From positions 1 through 26,353 of the IMG/VR virus record IMGVR_UViG_3300028883_000428: a stretch of 26,353 bases of DNA; one strand, given 5' to 3'. The stretch comes from a virus. Shown here piece by piece: positions 3,189 to 14,572 of the stretch. Position 1 is the first letter of the stretch. The number at the start of each line of letters is the position of its first letter. The translations under genes and the position numbers were made by a program. The notes under the pieces were generated by a model. That model was not told the DNA's origin and made no database searches. It saw nothing but the letters and a program-made list of their open reading frames with translations.

Positions 3189-3836
3189 ATGAGCCTAAAT
3201 TTTAGAAATATTCATTTATCTACATTAATTCCAGAATTTCCTTATATTTATGATTATAATAATAGAGAAATTCAGCGCTATTTAAATGTATTTTATGATG
3301 GATCAACAGGAATTATAATTAAACCTGTAGAAACTACAGGTAGAGTTAAAGGTGCAACTGGAGAATTTGTTAACGTAATTACTGATAATCTAACAATTAA
3401 AAGACAATATACCAATTGGTATGAAAATACTACAACAATAGATATTGATTATTATAGAACATATGATGCTAGTTATTATCAATGGAGAGACGCATCTATT
3501 ATGGGAGGCTCATTAGAAAATGACGCATTTAAATATATTGATGTTATTAGTCCTTATTATAAAATAACAAATGATGTATCTACTGCTTTTAAGGCTTCAG
3601 CTTTAGGACAAGAATTTCAAGTATTATTTGATATTTCTATAAATACTGCTCCATATAACATATTACTTGATCCAAGTATTAATGGAAGACATAAAATTTT
3701 GAAAGTAAATTATGCCGATGCTTCAAATGGAGCAACATGGCTAAAACTTATTGCTGTTGAATATGATGCTTCTTGGGGATATACATGGGCAATTAAACAA
3801 TATGGAGGAACTTATACAATTAGTGAATTTTATTGA
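3189..3836 (+). CDS. Hypothetical protein, probably a beta-rich virion protein
   Basis: A 215-residue protein, the only plus-strand gene in the window. It is rich in Tyr, Asn, Asp, Thr and Ser, has no signal peptide or membrane segment, and has alternating polar/hydrophobic stretches (ITDNLTIKRQYTNWYENTTTIDIDYYR near 64-90; ATWLKLIAVEYDASWGYTWAI near 182-202) typical of beta-sandwich phage fibre or decoration proteins. No family was recognised. Its last 17 bases overlap the last 17 of the convergent 2H phosphoesterase gene. A promoter-like box shared with late-type genes precedes it, which supports a structural role. Virion function is an inference from composition and context. Confidence 0.65.
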   Translation: MSLNFRNIHLSTLIPEFPYIYDYNNREIQRYLNVFYDGSTGIIIKPVETTGRVKGATGEFVNVITDNLTIKRQYTNWYENTTTIDIDYYRTYDASYYQWRDASIMGGSLENDAFKYIDVISPYYKITNDVSTAFKASALGQEFQVLFDISINTAPYNILLDPSINGRHKILKVNYADASNGATWLKLIAVEYDASWGYTWAIKQYGGTYTISEFY

Positions 3837-4368
3837 TTTTAAAATATTTTTTATTATATCCAGGATCTGAATAAACTGCTTTATTAAATTTAACTTTAAA
3901 CGGCTTATCTAATTTTTTAATATATTTTTTTCCTTCTCCTTTTTTAACATATGCAATAGTCATATGGGGATGATATTCTTTGTATGTTTGTGTATTAGGA
4001 AATTTTAGAAATTCCTTTCTATATTTTTTTAATTCTTTTGTAATAGGAACATCAAATTTAACTACATCATAGTCATCTGTTTCGAAAATATTTATTTTAT
4101 TTATAGTTACTTCTATAGGTTTCATTTCTTTTATTTGTTTATACATCTGATCTTTATCTACTTCATCTTCATGAAATCCATAAACTATAGTTATATGAGG
4201 ATCTTTTTCATAACCATAATCATCGTCTTTTTCATAAATATCTTCTTTATCTACAATAGATATTTTATCTTTCCAATTTGAAATATCTGCATATAACATT
4301 AAACACGCGTATTTTAAATTATCATTTTTTCTTTCTAGTAACCAATTTTTAAAACTTTCAAATTTCAT
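3820..4368 (-). CDS. 2H phosphoesterase (2'-5' RNA ligase / cyclic phosphodiesterase family)
   Basis: A 182-residue protein with the two HxT motifs of the 2H superfamily: PHITIVYGF with His58/Thr60 and PHMTIAYV with His135/Thr137. Spacing and order fit a two-lobed 2H fold, where both motifs line one active site that cleaves 2',3'-cyclic, 2'-5' or cyclic oligonucleotide phosphodiester bonds. T4 gp57B (Acb1), which degrades CBASS cyclic nucleotides, belongs to this superfamily; equivalence is not shown here. The N-terminus MKFESFKNWLLERK resembles the amphipathic leaders that send T4 internal proteins to the prohead, so packaging in the virion is conceivable. It is the last gene of the baseplate operon, 16 bases after the spike gene, and converges on the plus-strand gene. 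Confidence 0.8.
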   Translation of the reverse strand: MKFESFKNWLLERKNDNLKYACLMLYADISNWKDKISIVDKEDIYEKDDDYGYEKDPHITIVYGFHEDEVDKDQMYKQIKEMKPIEVTINKINIFETDDYDVVKFDVPITKELKKYRKEFLKFPNTQTYKEYHPHMTIAYVKKGEGKKYIKKLDKPFKVKFNKAVYSDPGYNKKYFKINKIH

Positions 4369-4384
4369 TATTAATTATTTTATT

Positions 4385-5155
4385 TTATCTACTTATCATT
4401 ACGTTAGTTGATGTTGCAGCCTGTTTTGCAGCTTCTACAAGGCCTACATTTACACCGGGTGTTGCTGGCATTTTAGCGTCAAGCGCAGTAGCCATTGTAG
4501 ATAATAATGCCCACATTGGTTCAGCTAATAATGCATGATTATATGGCCCTGGACCAACTTTAGTTGTCTGCGCTCCATTAACTACTACTTCATCTGCAGT
4601 AACTTCAGCTCGAGCTCCAGCAGCAACATTTACCTCATTTTTAGTTGTAATATTAACAACATCTCCATCCATTTGAATTATAGAATCTGCATTAGGAGTC
4701 TGTAACGTTATCATTGTATCAGGAGTTATCTGAATAAATGATTCTTTATGATATATTTGAAAACCACTTTCTCGCTGAAAAATTACAGTTAATTCTTCTA
4801 AAGGATCATATAAGAGAACGTGCGTTCCTTGATAATCATCTTTTATTTTTTTAATTAATTCAGTATCTATATTTTGAATAACTGAATATTCAGGAGCATA
4901 AAGATCTCCATTATTAAATTTAACTCTAACAAAATGACCTATTTTTGGAATTGAAATAGAACCTGCGCCATCTCCCGCAAATATAGGAGAATTTGTTGGA
5001 ACAGCCCAAGGTAATTGTTCATTATTGATACCTTCATGTAATCCAAATACTTTAATTTGACATCGTCCTGAAAATGTAGTATCATCAGAATTAACTACAA
5101 TTCCTATCCAATCACCATCATAATTACTACAACTTAAAAAATCTTTATCTGCCAT
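4385..5155 (-). CDS. Baseplate spike protein, gp5/gpV-like (OB fold plus beta-helix)
   Basis: A 256-residue protein. Residues about 15-95 form the OB domain of phage baseplate assembly protein V / gp5 / VgrG: WIGIVVNSDD, GRCQIKVFGLHEG, LPWAVP, then IPKIGHFVRVKFNNGD. Residues about 110-200 are short alternating strands (VVNITTKNEVNVAAGARAEV) typical of the trimeric beta-helical needle. The C-terminus (about 205-256) is Ala-rich and probably helical. The protein punctures the outer membrane during tail contraction. No lysozyme domain lies between OB and helix, unlike T4 gp5. Order in the operon is gp53-like, gp27-like hub, the 807-residue protein, then this gene, 4 bases downstream. Confidence 0.88.
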   Translation of the reverse strand: MADKDFLSCSNYDGDWIGIVVNSDDTTFSGRCQIKVFGLHEGINNEQLPWAVPTNSPIFAGDGAGSISIPKIGHFVRVKFNNGDLYAPEYSVIQNIDTELIKKIKDDYQGTHVLLYDPLEELTVIFQRESGFQIYHKESFIQITPDTMITLQTPNADSIIQMDGDVVNITTKNEVNVAAGARAEVTADEVVVNGAQTTKVGPGPYNHALLAEPMWALLSTMATALDAKMPATPGVNVGLVEAAKQAATSTNVMISR

Positions 5156-5159
5156 AATT

Positions 5160-7583
5160 TTAACCTTCTAATTTACCTTCTATTTTACGACTAGTTGCTC
5201 TACTTATTTCATCAGATTCTGTTAATTTTTCTCCCTGAATTTTACTTCCTAATTCTGAAGAAGGAGTAGCTTCAATAATTTTTCCAGTATCGATTATTTT
5301 TGTTTTAACATCAGTTGGTTTTTGCAAATTTTCATAAGTAACTCTTTTAGAAAGATTAGAAGAAGGTTTAATATTATTAACAGTCTTTTCAGTTATTTGA
5401 TCACTTAATTGAGTTGAAGGTTTAACTGTAGGAAGCTCACTTCCAACTGTAGCAGATGATAAACGTTCTGACGGAATAACATTAACTGTTGATGAAGCAC
5501 TTATTTCTTCTCCTAATTCACTAGATGCTCTTCCAGTATTAATACTATCTTCACTTATTTTACCTGATGTAGCATTTGAAGAAGATTTAGACACTACATT
5601 ATTTCCATCAATAACAGATGATAATTCTTCTGAAGCTTTTCCGGTATTAATACTATCTTCATTTATCTCTCCTGTAGCTGCATTTGGAGAAACAGTAGGT
5701 ATTATACTATCTACAGATGCTGTAGATGATAAACGTTCAGATGATTTTCCTATATTAATATTATCATCATTAATCTTTCCTGTAGCTGCATTTGGAGAAA
5801 CAGTAGGTATTATACTATCTACAGATGCTGTAGATGATAATTTCTCTGAAGCTTTTCCTACATTAATACTATCTTCATTAATCTTTCCTGTAGCTGCATT
5901 TGGAGAAGCACTAGGTAATTCATCTCCAATTATAGAAGATGTATGTAAAGATTGTTTTTTAACCATTTTACTATAATCATCTTTATTTTCTATATTTGTT
6001 GATTCATTATGTTCACCGGGCCCAACTAAATTTGTAGCCATTGAATAATCTACAATTTGCTTCCATAAACCCTTTTCTGTTAATACTTTATTTGCTGCAT
6101 TATTTAGAAATTTGCTATCATCATCAGTTGCTTCTGATTTTGCTAATACAGCTAATAATTCTTTCATTATATTATCTGTTTGAATGGGCTGTTCCAATCT
6201 TGATGATGGAGCATCACCAAATTCATTAACTACTGTAGTAATTCCCTTTCTTATAGTTCCAAGAGCAGCTACAATGTTTTTAGATTGTAATGCAGTTTGA
6301 ATTTCGTTATATGAAACTCCCATTCCCGGAATAGATGTTACTTTTGCTTTATTAATTAATTGTTCTGCAAAATTTTGAGCATATGCTTTTCCAAAATCGA
6401 TAGCATTTCCTATCCATGTATCTGGTTGTGCAGGATTAAAACTTTCCTGATATTGTTTAAGAGGATTATTTAATGTATCATTTTGATTAGGATATTCATT
6501 ATACGGCATACCCGATCTATGTTCAACAACATCTCCATCAACAGTATTAAATTCTCTTGCTTGAGCAATTTGTAATGTCACAGGATAAGTATACTTATTT
6601 TCAGATGACTTTTCTGTAGAAATTTCATCTTCCATTGTTCTATTAAGAGCATTAAGTTTTCTATCTGCTAAAAACATGTGTTTAAACATTGGATATATTT
6701 GTGTTTCTTTAATATTTCCTACTTTAATACCAAATTTAACAGCTCCTTGATCAGGTTCTCTATCTACACGTAAATCATCTAAATGAGTATACTCAATATC
6801 ATTTATATCAAATTCACACATTTCACATGTAATTTCCCACGTAGGTAATATATCGTCTAATACTTTTAAAACAAGAGGAACATTACCCGTATTTGTACCT
6901 TTTGGAATTCCCATGGGAAATGTATTATCATTAACTTCTGGTAAATGAAAATTTCTAAATTCTGAAAGATATATTTTAAGTGTAAAATATCTCATCATAT
7001 CTGGAAGAACCCATCTTTGATAAACATCATCCCATACTATTTTTCTATAAAGATTTAATAAATAACTCATTCTTAAATCTAATCCTTCAAGACATGTAAT
7101 TTTTAATCTTGTATCATTTGAAATTCTTTGTCCTTTTGTAGTATCAATTTTTAATAAATCTCTTACGCCTTCAATAGATTGAAAATAATATGGAAATAAA
7201 CCTTGAAGTTTTTGAAATTTTGTTATAAATTCTTCCAGCATTTTAACTCTTGTAGGTTCATTTGCATTTTCTAAATAATTAAGAGCTGAATAATCTATAT
7301 AGTCTGTTTCATATAAAAATGACGCGCGATATTTAGAATTAGACCATCTAGAAGGATGATTAAGTGTTGCTTCATTTCTTGTTGAAAATAAAGGATGGGG
7401 CATAGTATCATATGAAGTTCCATAGTTTGCTGAATTATATTGATTATCTCCTTGTCCAAATAATAATCTAAATGAGAAATATGTAGGTTCATCAAATCTT
7501 TTCGTTAAAGTATTCGAATCTCTACCAGCAATATCATACTGATATGTTCTAAATCTTTTATAAATATTAATAGCGTCTTCCAT
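5160..7583 (-). CDS. Baseplate/tail structural protein with C-terminal 18-residue repeats
   Basis: An 807-residue protein lying between the hub gene and the spike gene, so almost certainly a baseplate or tail component. The N-terminal 350 residues are a folded, aromatic-rich domain I could not assign (WDDVYQRWVLPDMMRYFTLKIYLSEFRNFHLP near 184-215). Residues about 370-540 are mixed and partly helical. From residue 542 to 757 there are twelve consecutive 18-residue units, with another at 773-790, following roughly P/A-S-x-x-L-S-x6-I/V. Three are joined in a 36-residue superrepeat that is nearly identical at DNA level. Such a tail could be an extended beta-solenoid or a flexible fibre. A few downstream units are degenerate, consistent with older duplications. 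Confidence 0.7.
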   Translation of the reverse strand: MEDAINIYKRFRTYQYDIAGRDSNTLTKRFDEPTYFSFRLLFGQGDNQYNSANYGTSYDTMPHPLFSTRNEATLNHPSRWSNSKYRASFLYETDYIDYSALNYLENANEPTRVKMLEEFITKFQKLQGLFPYYFQSIEGVRDLLKIDTTKGQRISNDTRLKITCLEGLDLRMSYLLNLYRKIVWDDVYQRWVLPDMMRYFTLKIYLSEFRNFHLPEVNDNTFPMGIPKGTNTGNVPLVLKVLDDILPTWEITCEMCEFDINDIEYTHLDDLRVDREPDQGAVKFGIKVGNIKETQIYPMFKHMFLADRKLNALNRTMEDEISTEKSSENKYTYPVTLQIAQAREFNTVDGDVVEHRSGMPYNEYPNQNDTLNNPLKQYQESFNPAQPDTWIGNAIDFGKAYAQNFAEQLINKAKVTSIPGMGVSYNEIQTALQSKNIVAALGTIRKGITTVVNEFGDAPSSRLEQPIQTDNIMKELLAVLAKSEATDDDSKFLNNAANKVLTEKGLWKQIVDYSMATNLVGPGEHNESTNIENKDDYSKMVKKQSLHTSSIIGDELPSASPNAATGKINEDSINVGKASEKLSSTASVDSIIPTVSPNAATGKINDDNINIGKSSERLSSTASVDSIIPTVSPNAATGEINEDSINTGKASEELSSVIDGNNVVSKSSSNATSGKISEDSINTGRASSELGEEISASSTVNVIPSERLSSATVGSELPTVKPSTQLSDQITEKTVNNIKPSSNLSKRVTYENLQKPTDVKTKIIDTGKIIEATPSSELGSKIQGEKLTESDEISRATSRKIEGKLEG
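5313..5960 (-). repeat. Twelve 54-bp coding repeats with a 108-bp higher-order duplication
   Basis: Twelve in-frame 54-base units encode 18 residues each, e.g. SPNAATGKINEDSINVGK, ASEKLSSTASVDSIIPTV, PSERLSSATVGSELPTVK and PSTQLSDQITEKTVNNIK. The block CCTGTAGCTGCATTTGGAGA (plus-strand reading) begins at 5671, 5779 and 5887, exactly 108 bases apart, so a recent 36-residue duplication sits on an older 18-residue pattern. The number of units could vary between related phages. Confidence 0.9.
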
Positions 7584-7590
7584 AATTTAT

Positions 7591-9219
7591 TTATTCTACA
7601 TTAGTTTCAATTGGTTCTATAGGAACTGGAGGGGGCCATTCTCTTCTTGTTAAAATAAATTCATGTGTAAATTTACTTAATGGTGTTCCTTCATCCTCAG
7701 ATGTCCATGATAATTTAAATCCTTTTACTAAGTACCAACCACTATAAAATAAATCTAATGAATCCATCAAACCTACATCAGGATTTATCGCAACATTTTC
7801 AAGTCTATCAGTTCTAACTAATACTACCGGAATTTTATCTCCTGTTATAACATTAAAATTATGGCCAGTAACTTCAATATGTAAATTTAGTTTATCTAAT
7901 TCTTTATTATTAATAAGATTTTGTACTAAAGAAAAATGATAATTTCTATGCTGATTTCCATCCCATTTTAAATTATCATCGTCAGGATTACTAATAGTAT
8001 ATTGTATACCTAACCATGGATATTTTTCATATAAATCTACATATGGATAATTTGCTCTTTTTAATTCAGTATTTTGATTATTTCCATCCTCATCTAAATC
8101 TTCTACATATGAAGCTCTACCTCGTAAAATAATATATCTATTTGTTTTTTGTGAATCATATGTAGGTTCAACCGGTACTGACCAATATTTTTGTCCTTCT
8201 ATATTTTCATAAATATTTTTATTATGTTCAAACATAGAGAATCTAATTTTTGTCCCAATTTCAAATGTTATATTTGAAGATCTATTAAATGGTCTCCATG
8301 TAGTTATATAAAATGGAGATGTTCTAAAATTTGGAAAATTAGAAAATACTTTTACTGTATTAATTGTACTTTTTTCATCTGTATCTGCACTCCAATTCCA
8401 ATTTTTATCTACATTAGTTAAAATAGCTGCCATTTCTACTTCTGATTCTGCAGATAATAATTGTTTGTTTATATTTACAAAATTTAAATTATAATAGATA
8501 TCTATCCATGATTTATAAAATGAAGTACTATCTCTCCAGGCTCTCTCGGTTACACTTTCAACAAATTCAATACCACAGTTATTAGCTTTTAACCATATTT
8601 GTTTATCATTAGTATTATACTCATTGCTTACAAATCCTAATTTATATTTTTTTGCAAATTCTTGTAATGTTTCATAAGAAGTTCCCTCAAAAGAAAAACT
8701 ATCTCTTTGTCCTCTTAATCCTGGAACAAATAATTCACCATAAAATGTCATCATTACAGGAGATTTAACTTCAGTAAAATTAGGAACCACATGCACGCCT
8801 GTAATTATATAATCATTGCGAACAATTTTAAGAACATCAGTTTTATTTCTAATAGCAATAGAAATAATGTCTCCATCTTTAGGCATTTCTTTTGCTAAAA
8901 ATATTTGATGTAAAAATGCTACACTTAATGTTATTTTTGGTAAAAATCCAGTACAATCTATACTCATATATTGAATCTCATTCCTACTAAATACATATTC
9001 ATTAACTTTAATAAGAGGTATTTCCATACTATATGAATCTTCTGGTTTATGCGTTTCTACACGACCTTCATTTTCAGTGGATTCATCTTTAGCTGTAATA
9101 GATAATTCATCTAATTTAATACTCGATTTAAATACAGTTTTTAATCCGTAAACTGCATCCTTTTTTTCTGGCGTTTTACCCGGGACTTTATTATCAGGTG
9201 GTGTAAATGTTAATCCCAT
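7591..9219 (-). CDS. Baseplate hub protein, gp27 / late control protein D-like
   Basis: A 542-residue protein. The segment near 174-250 carries the gpD/gp27 hub pattern: GTSYETLQEFAKKYKLGF, then WRDSTSFYKSWIDIYYNLNFVNIN. The N-terminal half is beta-rich (PKITLSVAFLH, GDIISIAI, YIITGVHV), as in the tube-like hub domains, and the C-terminus ends with a strand-rich domain (SGWYLVKGFKLSW, KFTHEFILTRREW). In T4, trimeric gp27 links the tail tube to the gp5 spike; here the spike gene lies two genes downstream. Its ATG overlaps the stop of the gp53-like gene as TAATG, so the two are translated together. The assignment is by pattern and gene order. Confidence 0.7.
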   Translation of the reverse strand: MGLTFTPPDNKVPGKTPEKKDAVYGLKTVFKSSIKLDELSITAKDESTENEGRVETHKPEDSYSMEIPLIKVNEYVFSRNEIQYMSIDCTGFLPKITLSVAFLHQIFLAKEMPKDGDIISIAIRNKTDVLKIVRNDYIITGVHVVPNFTEVKSPVMMTFYGELFVPGLRGQRDSFSFEGTSYETLQEFAKKYKLGFVSNEYNTNDKQIWLKANNCGIEFVESVTERAWRDSTSFYKSWIDIYYNLNFVNINKQLLSAESEVEMAAILTNVDKNWNWSADTDEKSTINTVKVFSNFPNFRTSPFYITTWRPFNRSSNITFEIGTKIRFSMFEHNKNIYENIEGQKYWSVPVEPTYDSQKTNRYIILRGRASYVEDLDEDGNNQNTELKRANYPYVDLYEKYPWLGIQYTISNPDDDNLKWDGNQHRNYHFSLVQNLINNKELDKLNLHIEVTGHNFNVITGDKIPVVLVRTDRLENVAINPDVGLMDSLDLFYSGWYLVKGFKLSWTSEDEGTPLSKFTHEFILTRREWPPPVPIEPIETNVE

Positions 9220-9803
9220 TATTTAATTTTTTTACTTTTTATTACTGTTGTTAAAAATTCAGATTGTGTCATACCATTTTCTAAACAAGTATCTACACTT
9301 TCTCCAAAATATACTCTTCCATTTCTATATGTTATTTGTTTTTCTCCAGTTTCAGATATATTTGGTGGTAAAGCTCCTTCTTTAGCTCCGCCTACTATTT
9401 GTCTATTAGCGAATGTATCATCTTTTTTAGGTATTTTAAGAGGATCTATATATTTATAACTATTTCTAAGAGTAGCTGCTCCATCAACTTCTGTTCCTTG
9501 AGTTTTAGAAGTTATCGCATCGGCTGAATCAAGATTAGGAATTAAAATAATATCACCTTCTTTAATTGTAAAAGGATTTGATATTCCATTAAATTTTAAT
9601 ATGTATTCTGCATATAACGTATTATTATAAACTGCTGCAGATATTAAATCTGGTCGCATTTCATATTCTCTAGGTACTTTATACATTTCATATGAAAGAT
9701 AATTATTACTATCCATATTAAACATTGACTTTGTCAAATCTCTAACTTTAATACCATCCGGTCTTGTAAATAAAGGTTTTTTGTCTAAACTATTAGGAAA
9801 CAT
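9219..9803 (-). CDS. Baseplate wedge protein, gp53-like with LysM domain
   Basis: A 194-residue protein. Residues about 48-90 form a LysM-like module: PDLISAAVYNNTLYAEYILKFNGISNPFTIKEGDIILIPN, here with the usual order of helix, loop and final ILIP strand. T4 gp53, which joins wedge to hub, also carries a LysM-like domain, and the position directly upstream of the hub gene supports that role. The N-terminus (YLSYEMYKVPREYEMRP) and the rest have no recognised motif. It is part of a tight set: 15 bases after the 842-residue gene and 1-base overlap with the hub gene. In a baseplate the LysM fold is probably structural rather than peptidoglycan-binding. Confidence 0.7.
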   Translation of the reverse strand: MFPNSLDKKPLFTRPDGIKVRDLTKSMFNMDSNNYLSYEMYKVPREYEMRPDLISAAVYNNTLYAEYILKFNGISNPFTIKEGDIILIPNLDSADAITSKTQGTEVDGAATLRNSYKYIDPLKIPKKDDTFANRQIVGGAKEGALPPNISETGEKQITYRNGRVYFGESVDTCLENGMTQSEFLTTVIKSKKIK

Positions 9804-12436: not shown

Positions 12437-12880
12437 TTATTTATGTTTCCATTCAACATTTTGTAAATTTGAGATTTTTTGGCATTCAATTAATCTTATT
12501 TTTTTAAAAGATGGAAAAAATATAATTTCATCAAAATGAGGATATAAATATTCTAATTTAGGAACATTATAATCATCTAATAATACAGCTTGTGTTATTG
12601 TATCTATTTCTGATATTGTTTCAAATAAATTATATAGAAGATCTTCATTAATATTTGGATTAGAATAAAATATTCCTCTTATTCTTTTAGATTTTGCGTA
12701 TGATTTAATTAAATCTGTAATATGATTACTTATAATAAAAGAACCATAATCATCAATCGTAGAATAAGTATATCCATGTTCTTCTAATATTTCAGGAATA
12801 TGAATAATTGAAAAAAGTTTAAGATTTAAAAATGAATTTTTGAGTCTTTGTGTTCCTTCTGTAGTAACGTAGAACTTCAT
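12437..12880 (-). CDS. Hypothetical protein, last gene before the terminator
   Basis: A 147-residue protein with no recognised domain. It is mixed alpha/beta in appearance, with hydrophobic strands (GSFIISNHITDLI near 46; DEIIFFPSFKKIRLIEC near 116) and no membrane segment. It starts 1 base downstream of the stop of the 97-residue gene and ends 34 bases before a strong terminator, so it closes the first structural operon. A role in tail or head assembly is suggested by position only. Confidence 0.6.
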   Translation of the reverse strand: MKFYVTTEGTQRLKNSFLNLKLFSIIHIPEILEEHGYTYSTIDDYGSFIISNHITDLIKSYAKSKRIRGIFYSNPNINEDLLYNLFETISEIDTITQAVLLDDYNVPKLEYLYPHFDEIIFFPSFKKIRLIECQKISNLQNVEWKHK

Positions 12881-12881
12881 A

Positions 12882-13175
12882 TTATTTTTTATTCTTTTTA
12901 TAATAAATCTTTTGTGCTTCCTCTAATGCATCTATTAAAGGAATTTTTTTTGAACTTGCTATTTGCTCTGCTAACAAATTTATCGCTTCTGAATCTTTTT
13001 CTTCTTTAGTCATATTTTGAATTCGTTTAACTTCTTCAAGAAATTGTTTATGTTGTTCTTTACCAGAAATGATATTTTCTCTTATTAAATCAAATTTTTC
13101 TTTACGAGTTAATTTTTGTTGATGTTGAAGTATGCCTAAATCTTTAGACATACGTCTTCGTTCTTTTCTGTTCAT
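12882..13175 (-). CDS. Small charged coiled-coil protein
   Basis: A 97-residue, highly charged protein beginning MNRKERRRMSKDLG, with Lys/Glu-rich helices throughout (KLTRKEKFDLIRENIIS, KEQHKQFLEEVKRIQNMTKEEKDSEAINLLAEQI) and a Lys-rich end. Basic starts of this type are common in small phage proteins. Predicted all-helical and soluble. It could be an assembly chaperone or a nucleic-acid-binding protein; nothing decides between them. It sits in the structural operon between the Nudix-like gene and the 147-residue gene. Confidence 0.6.
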   Translation of the reverse strand: MNRKERRRMSKDLGILQHQQKLTRKEKFDLIRENIISGKEQHKQFLEEVKRIQNMTKEEKDSEAINLLAEQIASSKKIPLIDALEEAQKIYYKKNKK

Positions 13176-13199
13176 AATATTATTTTTTAAAAAAGATTA

Positions 13200-13742
13200 T
13201 TATTCATCCGATAATGAACTAATATAAAAATAGTTAAATAAACGCAAATATCCGGATAATAGCAATGTATCATCTGAAGTTATAACTGTAGCAGAATCTA
13301 TCATTTTAAAATTAAGATCTTCTTGTTTTAATATACTTTCTTCAATCCAGGGCAAATCTTTATCTGTTAAATTAACACAGTATATATCAATTCCAGAATC
13401 AGAAGTTAAATTATTATATAAATTTCCTAAATACATCCAATCATCTGCATTAGTAATATTTATTCCTAATACTTCATATAAAACTCTATTAGCTGCAACT
13501 AAGTTTGTTCCATCATCTTCTGTAATATATCCATTTATAAGAGTATAATCATAATCTTCAAAAACATAATTGTAATCTTTTATAACTCCTATTTTATCTA
13601 AAAGTCCTTTAGAATCTATAGAATAAGGTAAAACAGCCACTTGATGTTTTTTAGAAACAAGATAATAATGATCTTTTATTTCTATAACATCTTCAAATTC
13701 ACCTTCAACGATAATTTTTTTCTCTATGTTTTTATCCATCAT
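13200..13742 (-). CDS. Nudix-fold-like protein with degenerate catalytic box
   Basis: A 180-residue protein. Residues 70-94 resemble a Nudix box: NGYITEDDGTN, then AANRVLYEVLGI. Compared with Gx5Ex7REUxEExGU, Arg86, Leu88, Glu90, Gly93 and Ile94 are kept, but the glutamates expected after Arg and before Leu are Val87 and Val91. Metal binding for pyrophosphohydrolysis is therefore probably lost. The flanks (YYLVSKKHQVAVLPYSID before; WMYLGNLYNNLTSDSGIDIYCVNLTDKD after) also look like Nudix strands. Located among structural genes, it may be a virion or assembly protein reusing the fold. The family call rests on my motif reading and is moderate. Confidence 0.5.
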   Translation of the reverse strand: MMDKNIEKKIIVEGEFEDVIEIKDHYYLVSKKHQVAVLPYSIDSKGLLDKIGVIKDYNYVFEDYDYTLINGYITEDDGTNLVAANRVLYEVLGINITNADDWMYLGNLYNNLTSDSGIDIYCVNLTDKDLPWIEESILKQEDLNFKMIDSATVITSDDTLLLSGYLRLFNYFYISSLSDE

Positions 13743-13768
13743 GATTACTTAATTTTAATATATATTTA

Positions 13769-14572
13769 TCATGAGTTTTCTTTAACTACCTTTGGAGTTT
13801 TAGAGGGTTGTGTATTTGTAGGAGAATTTTCCTCATACATGTTTTTTATTGCTTCTTTTAAAGCTTCTTTTATTTCATCTGTAGTTATTTCATCTACAAT
13901 ATAATCTATAAATTTAACATCTCCTTCATCAAATGAATCTTTTGCAATATCATATAATGTTTTTGGAGGAAGAGAAACTGTCATTTCCATATTTATATCA
14001 ATATCATGTTTTTTAGCCTTTGTCATTAAAATATAAACTGGATCTGTAGTATCTATTTGCCTAGTTTCTGTTTGATCTTTAACTGGAATTCCCGGAGATT
14101 TTAATTGCGTTGTATCTACTTTAGGTTCGGGTTCAGATTTAACATTACTAATTGCTCCAAATACAGAGTGTGAAGGTGGTGTAGGTTTAGGAGGTACTAA
14201 TTCTATTTTTTTCTTTTTTGATTGTTTTTGTGGTCTTGTAACACCTCCTTCTGAAGTTAAATCTGCTGTAGTAATTTCTTCAACGGGCGGAACTTCATAA
14301 TTCTGTCCAGAATTTGCATCTTTTTCAACACGAGGTTTTCCTGATGTATCTTCTTTTTCAACAAATTTCCAACAATTTTGAGGACTATCAATCTCGGCCA
14401 TCATTTTTCCTGTCAAATCTCGTTGATTAATTTGCGCAACTAATTTTTCATTAATACGAGAATTGTCTTTAAAAGTAATATAAATTTCCCCGTCATCTTG
14501 TTCTATTCTATCAAATATAAGGATTTCTCCTCTTCTTTCTCCAACTATCCACTGAAAATAACGATTATTCAT
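13769..14572 (-). CDS. Putative virion-associated protein with Pro/Lys-rich linker
   Basis: A 267-residue protein with three regions. The N-terminal domain, about 1-72 (FQWIVGERRGEILIFDRIEQDDGEIYITFKDNSRINEKL, here broken by a GKMMAEID segment), is compact and beta-rich. Residues about 75-165 are a low-complexity linker rich in Pro, Lys, Thr and Glu. The C-terminal domain, about 170-245, is helical (PVYILMTKAKKHDIDINMEM, LPPKTLYDIAKDSFDEGD, IKEALKEAIKNMYEE). A disordered tail follows. I recall this layout from large Bacteroidetes phages without a known role. It lies in the structural operon; a scaffold-like or baseplate-linker function is possible. Confidence 0.55.
   Translation of the reverse strand: MNNRYFQWIVGERRGEILIFDRIEQDDGEIYITFKDNSRINEKLVAQINQRDLTGKMMAEIDSPQNCWKFVEKEDTSGKPRVEKDANSGQNYEVPPVEEITTADLTSEGGVTRPQKQSKKKKIELVPPKPTPPSHSVFGAISNVKSEPEPKVDTTQLKSPGIPVKDQTETRQIDTTDPVYILMTKAKKHDIDINMEMTVSLPPKTLYDIAKDSFDEGDVKFIDYIVDEITTDEIKEALKEAIKNMYEENSPTNTQPSKTPKVVKENS

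Follow-up and report, generated by a model that had tools for sequence, protein, structure and literature searches.

The window analyzed here is the whole 26,353-base virus record IMGVR_UViG_3300028883_000428. ORF reading with PHROGs and Pfam searches resolves a cluster of baseplate genes on its minus strand, encoding proteins of 842, 194, 542 and 807 residues (the last being the repeat protein) and a 256-residue spike/OB protein. N-domain homologues of the 807-residue protein, found in 24 phage records, place the phage with jumbo phages of Bacteroidota, namely Lak (Prevotella), Tenacibaculum and Flavobacterium phages; PAU, for which the record gives Sphingomonas as host, is also among them. 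The gene order is the same in relatives with enough flanking sequence, with small genes inserted in some. The features of the locus are as follows.

4385..5155 (-): 256-residue spike/OB-fold protein (PF04717, E 3e-7, above its cut-off; PHROG baseplate hub/tail lysozyme, E 7.5e-12)
5160..7583 (-): 807-residue tail-tube-initiator-like protein with a repeat tail (ORF; homologues; syntenic family in IMG/VR)
5193..5204 (-): C-terminal SxAT motif, aa 794-797, SRAT (relatives SKATxSKLE, PSSxATTNKI; motif scan)
5211..5264 (-): isolated unit, aa 774-791, its position kept by most clade members, with or without an array
5313..5906 (-): 18-residue array, aa 560-757, seven P/A/S-S-x-x-L and four PNAATG-type units, disordered in the model
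5616..5917 (-): 108-bp (36-residue) tandem duplication (TRF: 2.8 copies, 87% matches, no indels)
6033..6044 (-): singleton motif SMAT, aa 514-517, conserved
6036..6416 (-): helical domain, aa 390-516, six predicted helices (block-mean pLDDT 53-89), conserved in the clade alignment
6126..6137 (-): singleton motif SEAT, aa 483-486, directly before a predicted helix, conserved in the family
6549..7520 (-): N-domain, aa 22-345, predicted tail-tube fold (model and VIA Z)
7591..9219 (-): 542-residue baseplate-operon protein, syntenic across the family
9219..9803 (-): 194-residue baseplate protein (PHROG tail sheath, E 7.9e-12; baseplate wedge subunit, E 1.7e-6)

A first-pass annotation had placed the repeat protein in a baseplate operon, between hub and spike genes. 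The operon is borne out by the PF04717 spike gene, the PHROG sheath/wedge match and synteny in relatives, and the PF04717 match in the 256-residue neighbor secures the spike side. The hub side is not confirmed: the 542-residue neighbor gives no Pfam match and no PDB profile match, and its PHROGs matches are only to groups of unknown function.

Several smaller genes accompany the cluster. At 3820-4368 (-) the window encodes a member of the 2'-5' RNA ligase superfamily (PF13563, E 1.6e-12) with a sub-threshold match to anti-CBASS Acb1 (E 3e-5), and a counterpart of this 2H phosphoesterase is present near the baseplate genes of many relatives. It begins with a stretch similar to, and shorter than, an N-terminal leader like MKxxxYRKWLNEKFxEESDPIxDMGIG that is common to several unrelated small genes of a related locus (L112:3437-5524 and 12750-14500, minus strand); by analogy, such a leader may serve as a packaging mark for proteins. 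A lone plus-strand ORF of 215 residues (3189-3836) has a start resembling that of a 1751-residue ORF in genome G002 (L100) and is perhaps a fibre module. In several phages, ankyrin-like repeat genes, named by eye, have been inserted between the family gene and the spike gene or close to them (L048:4721 onward, L042:15685 onward and L112:12750-14500, minus strand).

A predicted tail-tube fold at the N-terminus

The protein was modeled with AF2 from an alignment of 49 window and locus sequences, with pLDDT taken in 10-residue blocks; an earlier AF2 run on 6 sequences (mean pLDDT 32.7) was set aside. The N-domain is confident at aa 31-70 and 101-345, with blocks mostly at 77-97 and dips around aa 71-100 and 211-240. 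The first-pass description of a folded domain joined to a repeat tail agrees with this model, which passes from a confident N-domain through a helical domain to the array.

VIA comparison of the N-domain gives Z 11.4 to 9f4a_BQ (a KP1 baseplate-cup/tube chain), 10.7 to 5iv5_BG (a T4 baseplate-tube chain), 9.4 to the phi-kp24 tube and 9.1 to 5w5f_A (the T4 tube). Over the baseplate-tube and tube chains with Z 11.4, 10.7, 10.1 and 9.1, 147-188 residues are aligned, and almost every VIA match listed is a tube or Hcp protein. Foldseek returns E values of about 1e-3 on the same chains. In BFVD, unnamed proteins from related phages, pT24 among them, rank first; next come tube and tube-initiator proteins, with one entry named 'Baseplate tail tube protein' (E 4.9e-5) and another 'Baseplate tail tube initiator' (E 2e-3). 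Sequence searches with the 807-residue protein gave no PHROG match, no Pfam match above cut-off and no PDB profile match, and divergence may hide one. In T4, the tube protein polymerizes on a platform built from six copies each of gp48 and gp54 (PMC3004832). Because of its predicted tube fold and this role of gp48/gp54, we call the 807-residue protein tube-initiator-like and read it as a gp48/gp54-like tail tube initiator with a predicted fold and, presumably, a ring arrangement.

The 18-residue array and its tandem duplication

Positions 5313-5960 comprise exactly twelve 54-nucleotide frames, aa 542-757 of the ORF. The first-pass annotation had reported twelve repeats of 18 residues with uniform P/A-S-x-x-L-S spacing; the frames stand and the uniformity does not. 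P/A/S-S-x-x-L occurs in seven frames (aa 578, 614, 650, 686, 704, 722 and 740), four others (aa 560, 596, 632 and 668) belong to another type, with the sequence SPNAATGKINEDSINxGK or a diverged form of it, and the first frame (aa 542-559) matches neither. Early in the array, both unit types alternate within the 36-residue, 108-bp tandem duplication.

The periodicity exceeds chance at both scales. From aa 517 onward, the tail gives z = 14.5 at lag 36, exceeded by none of 200 shuffles, and z = 3.9 at lag 18; at aa 645-790, with most 36-residue duplications excluded, lag 18 yields 25 identities against a mean of 11.4 and a maximum of 23 in 2000 shuffles. When scored with a matrix built from nine relatives only, with the window protein left out, six of the twelve frames and the isolated unit reach 7.8-20.1, while 95% of 1000 shuffle maxima fall below 5.4; frames 686 and 542 score -2.3 and -14.5. 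The isolated unit had been recognized earlier and is displaced here by one residue, to aa 774-791 from 773-790. The window array is thus above chance and common to relatives, yet is not twelve copies of one unit.

The 108-bp period at 5671, 5779 and 5887, previously described as perfect, is real and imperfect. Positions 5671-5778 and 5779-5886 are identical at 98 of 108 nucleotides (the longest exact runs are 63 nt, starting at 5670, and 33 nt, starting at 5767), and the copies at 5779 and 5887 agree at 55 of 108 because the third copy is partial. Within the 26-kb window, the array is the only TRF entry with a period above 36. Between the window's 36-residue copies, pN/pS is about 0.5-1.1.

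Predicted disorder of the repeat tail

Residues 548-807 have block-mean pLDDT of 26-38 and no strand in the monomer AF2 model, whose other domains are confident, and the array units are not helical. The tails are polar and predicted to be disordered, and unit length shifts among 17, 18 and 19 within single proteins. A regular beta-solenoid, one of the forms first suggested for the repeats, finds no support in view of the absence of strand, the low pLDDT of the monomer model and this drift in unit length; a tether or anchor role, also suggested then, may apply. The first-pass annotation had held that predicted disorder combined with loss of the 18-residue period in relatives would count against it: the disorder is found, and the period is conserved within the window's own clade, so half of that combination is observed.

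A related proposal is that three or six chains fold together on assembly into a beta-structured fibre or solenoid, which monomer prediction would miss. Near-fixed unit length and P/S/G-rich stretches would suit such a fibre, as would the greater hydrophobicity of Lak-type tails (0.34-0.36 of residues). The window array has a hydrophobic fraction of just 0.29, however, and together with the strandless, low-pLDDT model and the drifting unit length this makes a beta-structured fibre very unlikely.

Array diversity across the family

Overlapping scans of IMG/VR returned 6, 27 and 61 loci, and a scan of bacterial genomes returned one locus, in a Bacteroidales assembly. Near-identical or duplicate loci were dropped from the counts (L006, L019, L022, L024, L028, L033, L041, L043-L049, L053-L055, L057, L063, L065, L070, L073 and L077). 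The period and motif set comprises 55 proteins, about one per near-identical set, with 6 of the 55 tails too short for the period test, and the N-domain tree has 55 rows (53 family members and 2 Lak).

The tails of the 55 members range from no array to arrays of 14-20-residue (or ~33-40-residue) units of lineage-specific sequence. A period better than all 200 shuffles is present in 26 of the 49 testable tails, with best lags of 14, 15, 17-19, 29, 33-34, 36, 38 or 40. PSSxL units characterize the window clade, 36-40-residue 'SxATDLxGxGExN' and ~19-residue 'SEATDGD' units mark other lineages, and 14-residue units occur on the Lak side; in the N-domain tree, different kinds of array fall in separate supported clades. 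The window's sister, L017, shares 71% N-domain identity and has no array, and L018, L025 and others likewise retain the N-domain gene while lacking an array. The L004 array has at least 17 units at exact 18-residue intervals, and its contig ends inside it. Units of L004 have pS 0.37 and pN 0.12; those of L003 have pN 0.50 and pS 0.47. Two expectations of the first-pass annotation are borne out here: repeat number varies among relatives, and the 18-residue period is conserved in the window's own clade. Separate expansions, or replacement of one array by another, across lineages is the simplest reading, as judged informally rather than by a formal count.

Some family genes require care in reading. 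L075 and L079 (one each) and L081 (five) contain in-frame TGA codons in the family gene, which forms a single long frame with TGA as W, and are probably TGA-recoded phages; for Lak, L084 and L087, taking TAG as Q gives the better reading. In L060:4980-6736, the gene is split by a frame change, with the C-terminal part in another frame from 6407, through sequencing error or in reality.

The Lak megaphage homologue

Of 15 matching Lak records, four were examined (MK250024, MK250016, MK250019 and MK250029, all without annotation). Translating TAG as Q gives a Lak homologue of 1344-1386 residues, with about 30% identity to the window protein in the N-domain. It resembles the window protein in this shared N-domain, in the position of the array and in whole-unit indels, and differs in its TAG code and in its 14-residue units, which carry neither PSSxL nor SxAT. 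Over the last ~800 residues, lag 14 has z 23-29.5 in all four phages, and the length of the array corresponds to an estimated 50 or so units of 14 residues. Lak-A1 and Lak-C1, which are 96% identical, differ over ~1344 aligned residues by three 14-residue indels at three places and by no other. Their arrays have pS 0.100 and pN 0.031; array pN/pS is 0.31 for A1-C1 and 0.56 for A1-B5, compared with 0.04 and 0.08, respectively, in the N-domain. The Lak array is constrained, though less so than the N-domain.

SxAT motifs and a stand-alone array

In the C-terminal regions of the 55 proteins, SxAT occurs 211 times against 10.1 expected from shuffles, an excess inflated by shared ancestry. The motif is inherited before a helix in the helical domain, at the end of that domain and at the C-terminus, and much of the excess is inheritance of these few positions. 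A scan of 60 proteins, including L074 and four distant phages, found a spacing of 31 between successive SxAT motifs in 26. Motifs outside the array retain the same form in array-less relatives, and the repeats of several lineages look like copies of these SxAT singletons. Kinship between PSSxL and SxAT is our own reading of the sequences, and the two may be separate motifs.

Among the 174 ORFs of at least 250 residues in G002 (400 of 405 kb), the family protein alone holds four or more PSSxL or SxAT motifs, and those ORFs offer no motif-based clue to a partner; nor do the other virion proteins of the window under a stricter motif, which gave one chance-like match in the spike gene. SxAT-rich ORFs outside the family gene in the fetched loci proved to be continuations of that gene, probable chance occurrences or the following array.

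L077:6631-8313 (and L076): stand-alone array ORF of 561 residues, units with SAAT or SAAS (ORF reading)

This ORF of the 364-kb phages L076 and L077 lies about 34 bp downstream of the family gene and consists almost wholly of ~27 units of ~20 residues (NFxRPxDYSAATDEDNAIEQ). A search for further arrays of this kind returned only L076 and L077, two near-identical records, and none turned up in the phage collection. A free-standing array suggests a function beyond tethering the N-domain.

Another proposal is a host-facing adhesin arm: the array would attach to the cell surface, and an arms race would drive the turnover of its sequence. The quick turnover of unit sequence and number between lineages would be expected of such an arm. 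The array is joined to a tube-junction fold, not to a peripheral fibre, and the same motif is retained as singletons in the conserved helical domain; both facts point the other way, and we regard an adhesin as highly improbable.

A putative docking array on the proposed tube initiator

The reading we favor, tentatively and with some doubt, is that the array is a multivalent, disordered array of docking peptides hung from the tube initiator. One ring of a gp48/gp54-kind initiator would sit at the baseplate/tail-tube junction, and the C-terminus of each subunit would extend as a long disordered chain with short docking peptides every 18 residues. Each unit would be a short linear motif (P/A-S-S-x-L-S-x-x-I-x-G-x-x-L and the related S-x-A-T-D/N) copying conserved singletons of the same protein. 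With six subunits to the ring, as for T4 gp48 and gp54, about 66 units would surround the tube base. The units would bind by avidity a partner with many equal sites, most likely one of the structural parts of the tail, for instance the tube, sheath or wedge rings as they assemble. Tandem duplication and deletion add or drop whole units, keeping the spacing while motif number and, between lineages, sequence change. That the arrays of different lineages share a function is suggested by their position and periodicity.

The predicted tube fold, the baseplate synteny, the predicted disorder, selection in the L004 and Lak arrays, the SxAT excess, the unchanged form of the motifs outside the array in array-less relatives, whole-unit spacing, the separate L076/L077 gene and the motif count in G002 argue for a docking array. 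The array-less sister L017 counts against it, as the array is therefore dispensable. The near-equal pN and pS of L003 and the window's pN/pS suggest weak constraint there beyond the anchor residues, and whole-unit indels are also expected from slippage alone.

The same points favor, in part, a near-neutral or purely physical tail, in which slippage acts on a tolerant disordered C-terminus and at most length or bulk matters, as in an entropic bristle, spacer or tether. Presence or absence of the array between near neighbors, wholly different unit sequences between lineages, the L003 values and the polar, disordered character of the tails all accord with such a tail. Purifying selection in the L004 and Lak arrays does not, nor does the SxAT excess, the restriction of the Lak-A1/C1 indels to whole units or the L076/L077 array gene, which has no domain to tether. 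On balance, we consider a near-neutral tail unlikely, though it is the main rival and deserves serious weight.

Tail length and a tape measure candidate

Tail rings rise by about 40 A, a distance that 14-20 extended residues could span. The array could act as a ruler or scaffold in which each 14-20-residue unit pairs with one tube or sheath ring, as a tape-like chain beside or instead of a tape measure protein. The array is located where the tube starts, gp48/gp54 being the T4 tube growth platform (PMC3004832); known tape measure proteins use tandem repeats of fixed period (11, and 11-11-18) as anchors (PMC3271669); and in the Bacteroidota 'moraphages', putative kin of the phages with this family, no tape measure protein was recognized (PMC12619734).

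Against a ruler, the units are not helical in the model, and array-less relatives presumably still build tails; we consider a ruler very unlikely. A tape measure would be present in every tail-building member, and the array is absent from L017, L018 and L025. A better candidate by sequence is a conserved protein of ~990-1170 residues encoded downstream of the spike gene (L112:7549-11001, minus strand; homologues in L020, L032, L042, L051, L056 and others), which has two strongly hydrophobic segments and is present with and without arrays. Its length correlates weakly with that of the array region (Spearman 0.56, p 0.12, 9 members). The array as sole ruler was rejected on the retention of the N-domain gene in array-less members and on this downstream candidate. 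A query of 1000 residues from the ~1150-residue form of the downstream protein found no match in the phage collection. Searching 11 records for the sheath with PF04984 gave a single weak match; PHROGs does recognize a sheath in G002, so the Pfam search is insensitive here. The wider proposal, that a unit-counted disordered chain fused to or beside the tube initiator, one 14-20-residue unit per tube or sheath ring, tunes assembly or tail length in huge Bacteroidota phages in place of a classical tape measure protein, with the role re-invented with different peptides in several lineages including Lak, is in our view very improbable.

Comparison with known systems

Tube initiators are core tail parts usually thought of as compact rings. 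A family whose ring displays as many as 50 or so peptides at regular intervals, in arrays that have seemingly re-evolved several times and are altered in whole units, would add a part not yet described to the contractile tails of some of the largest known phages. The nearby tape measure candidate is relevant to phage groups where none is recognized. No Pfam family covers the array protein, and searches of Pfam with the arrays of eight members and of PHROGs with those of seven gave only sub-threshold or repeat-driven matches. A literature search, which reached neither subscription papers nor preprints, found no description of the array, and the accessible part of the Lak phages paper (PMC8346664) makes no mention of one. 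To our knowledge, the parts are known in kind (tube initiator, in-frame disordered repeats and tail-protein repeats), and their combination at one conserved position across so wide a set of huge phages is undescribed.

T4 gp48/gp54 and their KP1 relatives share with the window protein the tail-tube fold (VIA Z 10.7-11.4), the baseplate cluster and an adjoining gp5-like spike gene. Unlike them, the window protein has an extra helical domain and a long disordered repeat tail, and has no PDB sequence-profile match. Repeat-bearing tape measure proteins (PMC3271669) likewise combine a variable count of fixed-period tandem units with a tail assembly protein, whereas the array is polar and predicted to be disordered, is lacking from many members and continues a domain of tube fold. 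Borg elements (PMC9879509) contain fast-evolving in-frame amino-acid tandem repeats that form disordered regions and arose independently in related proteins. The window array is similarly made of in-frame tandem units forming a disordered region; the Borg repeats are described there as genome-wide, and the phage arrays in the loci compared occupy one position of one virion protein, with units that appear to copy its conserved singletons.
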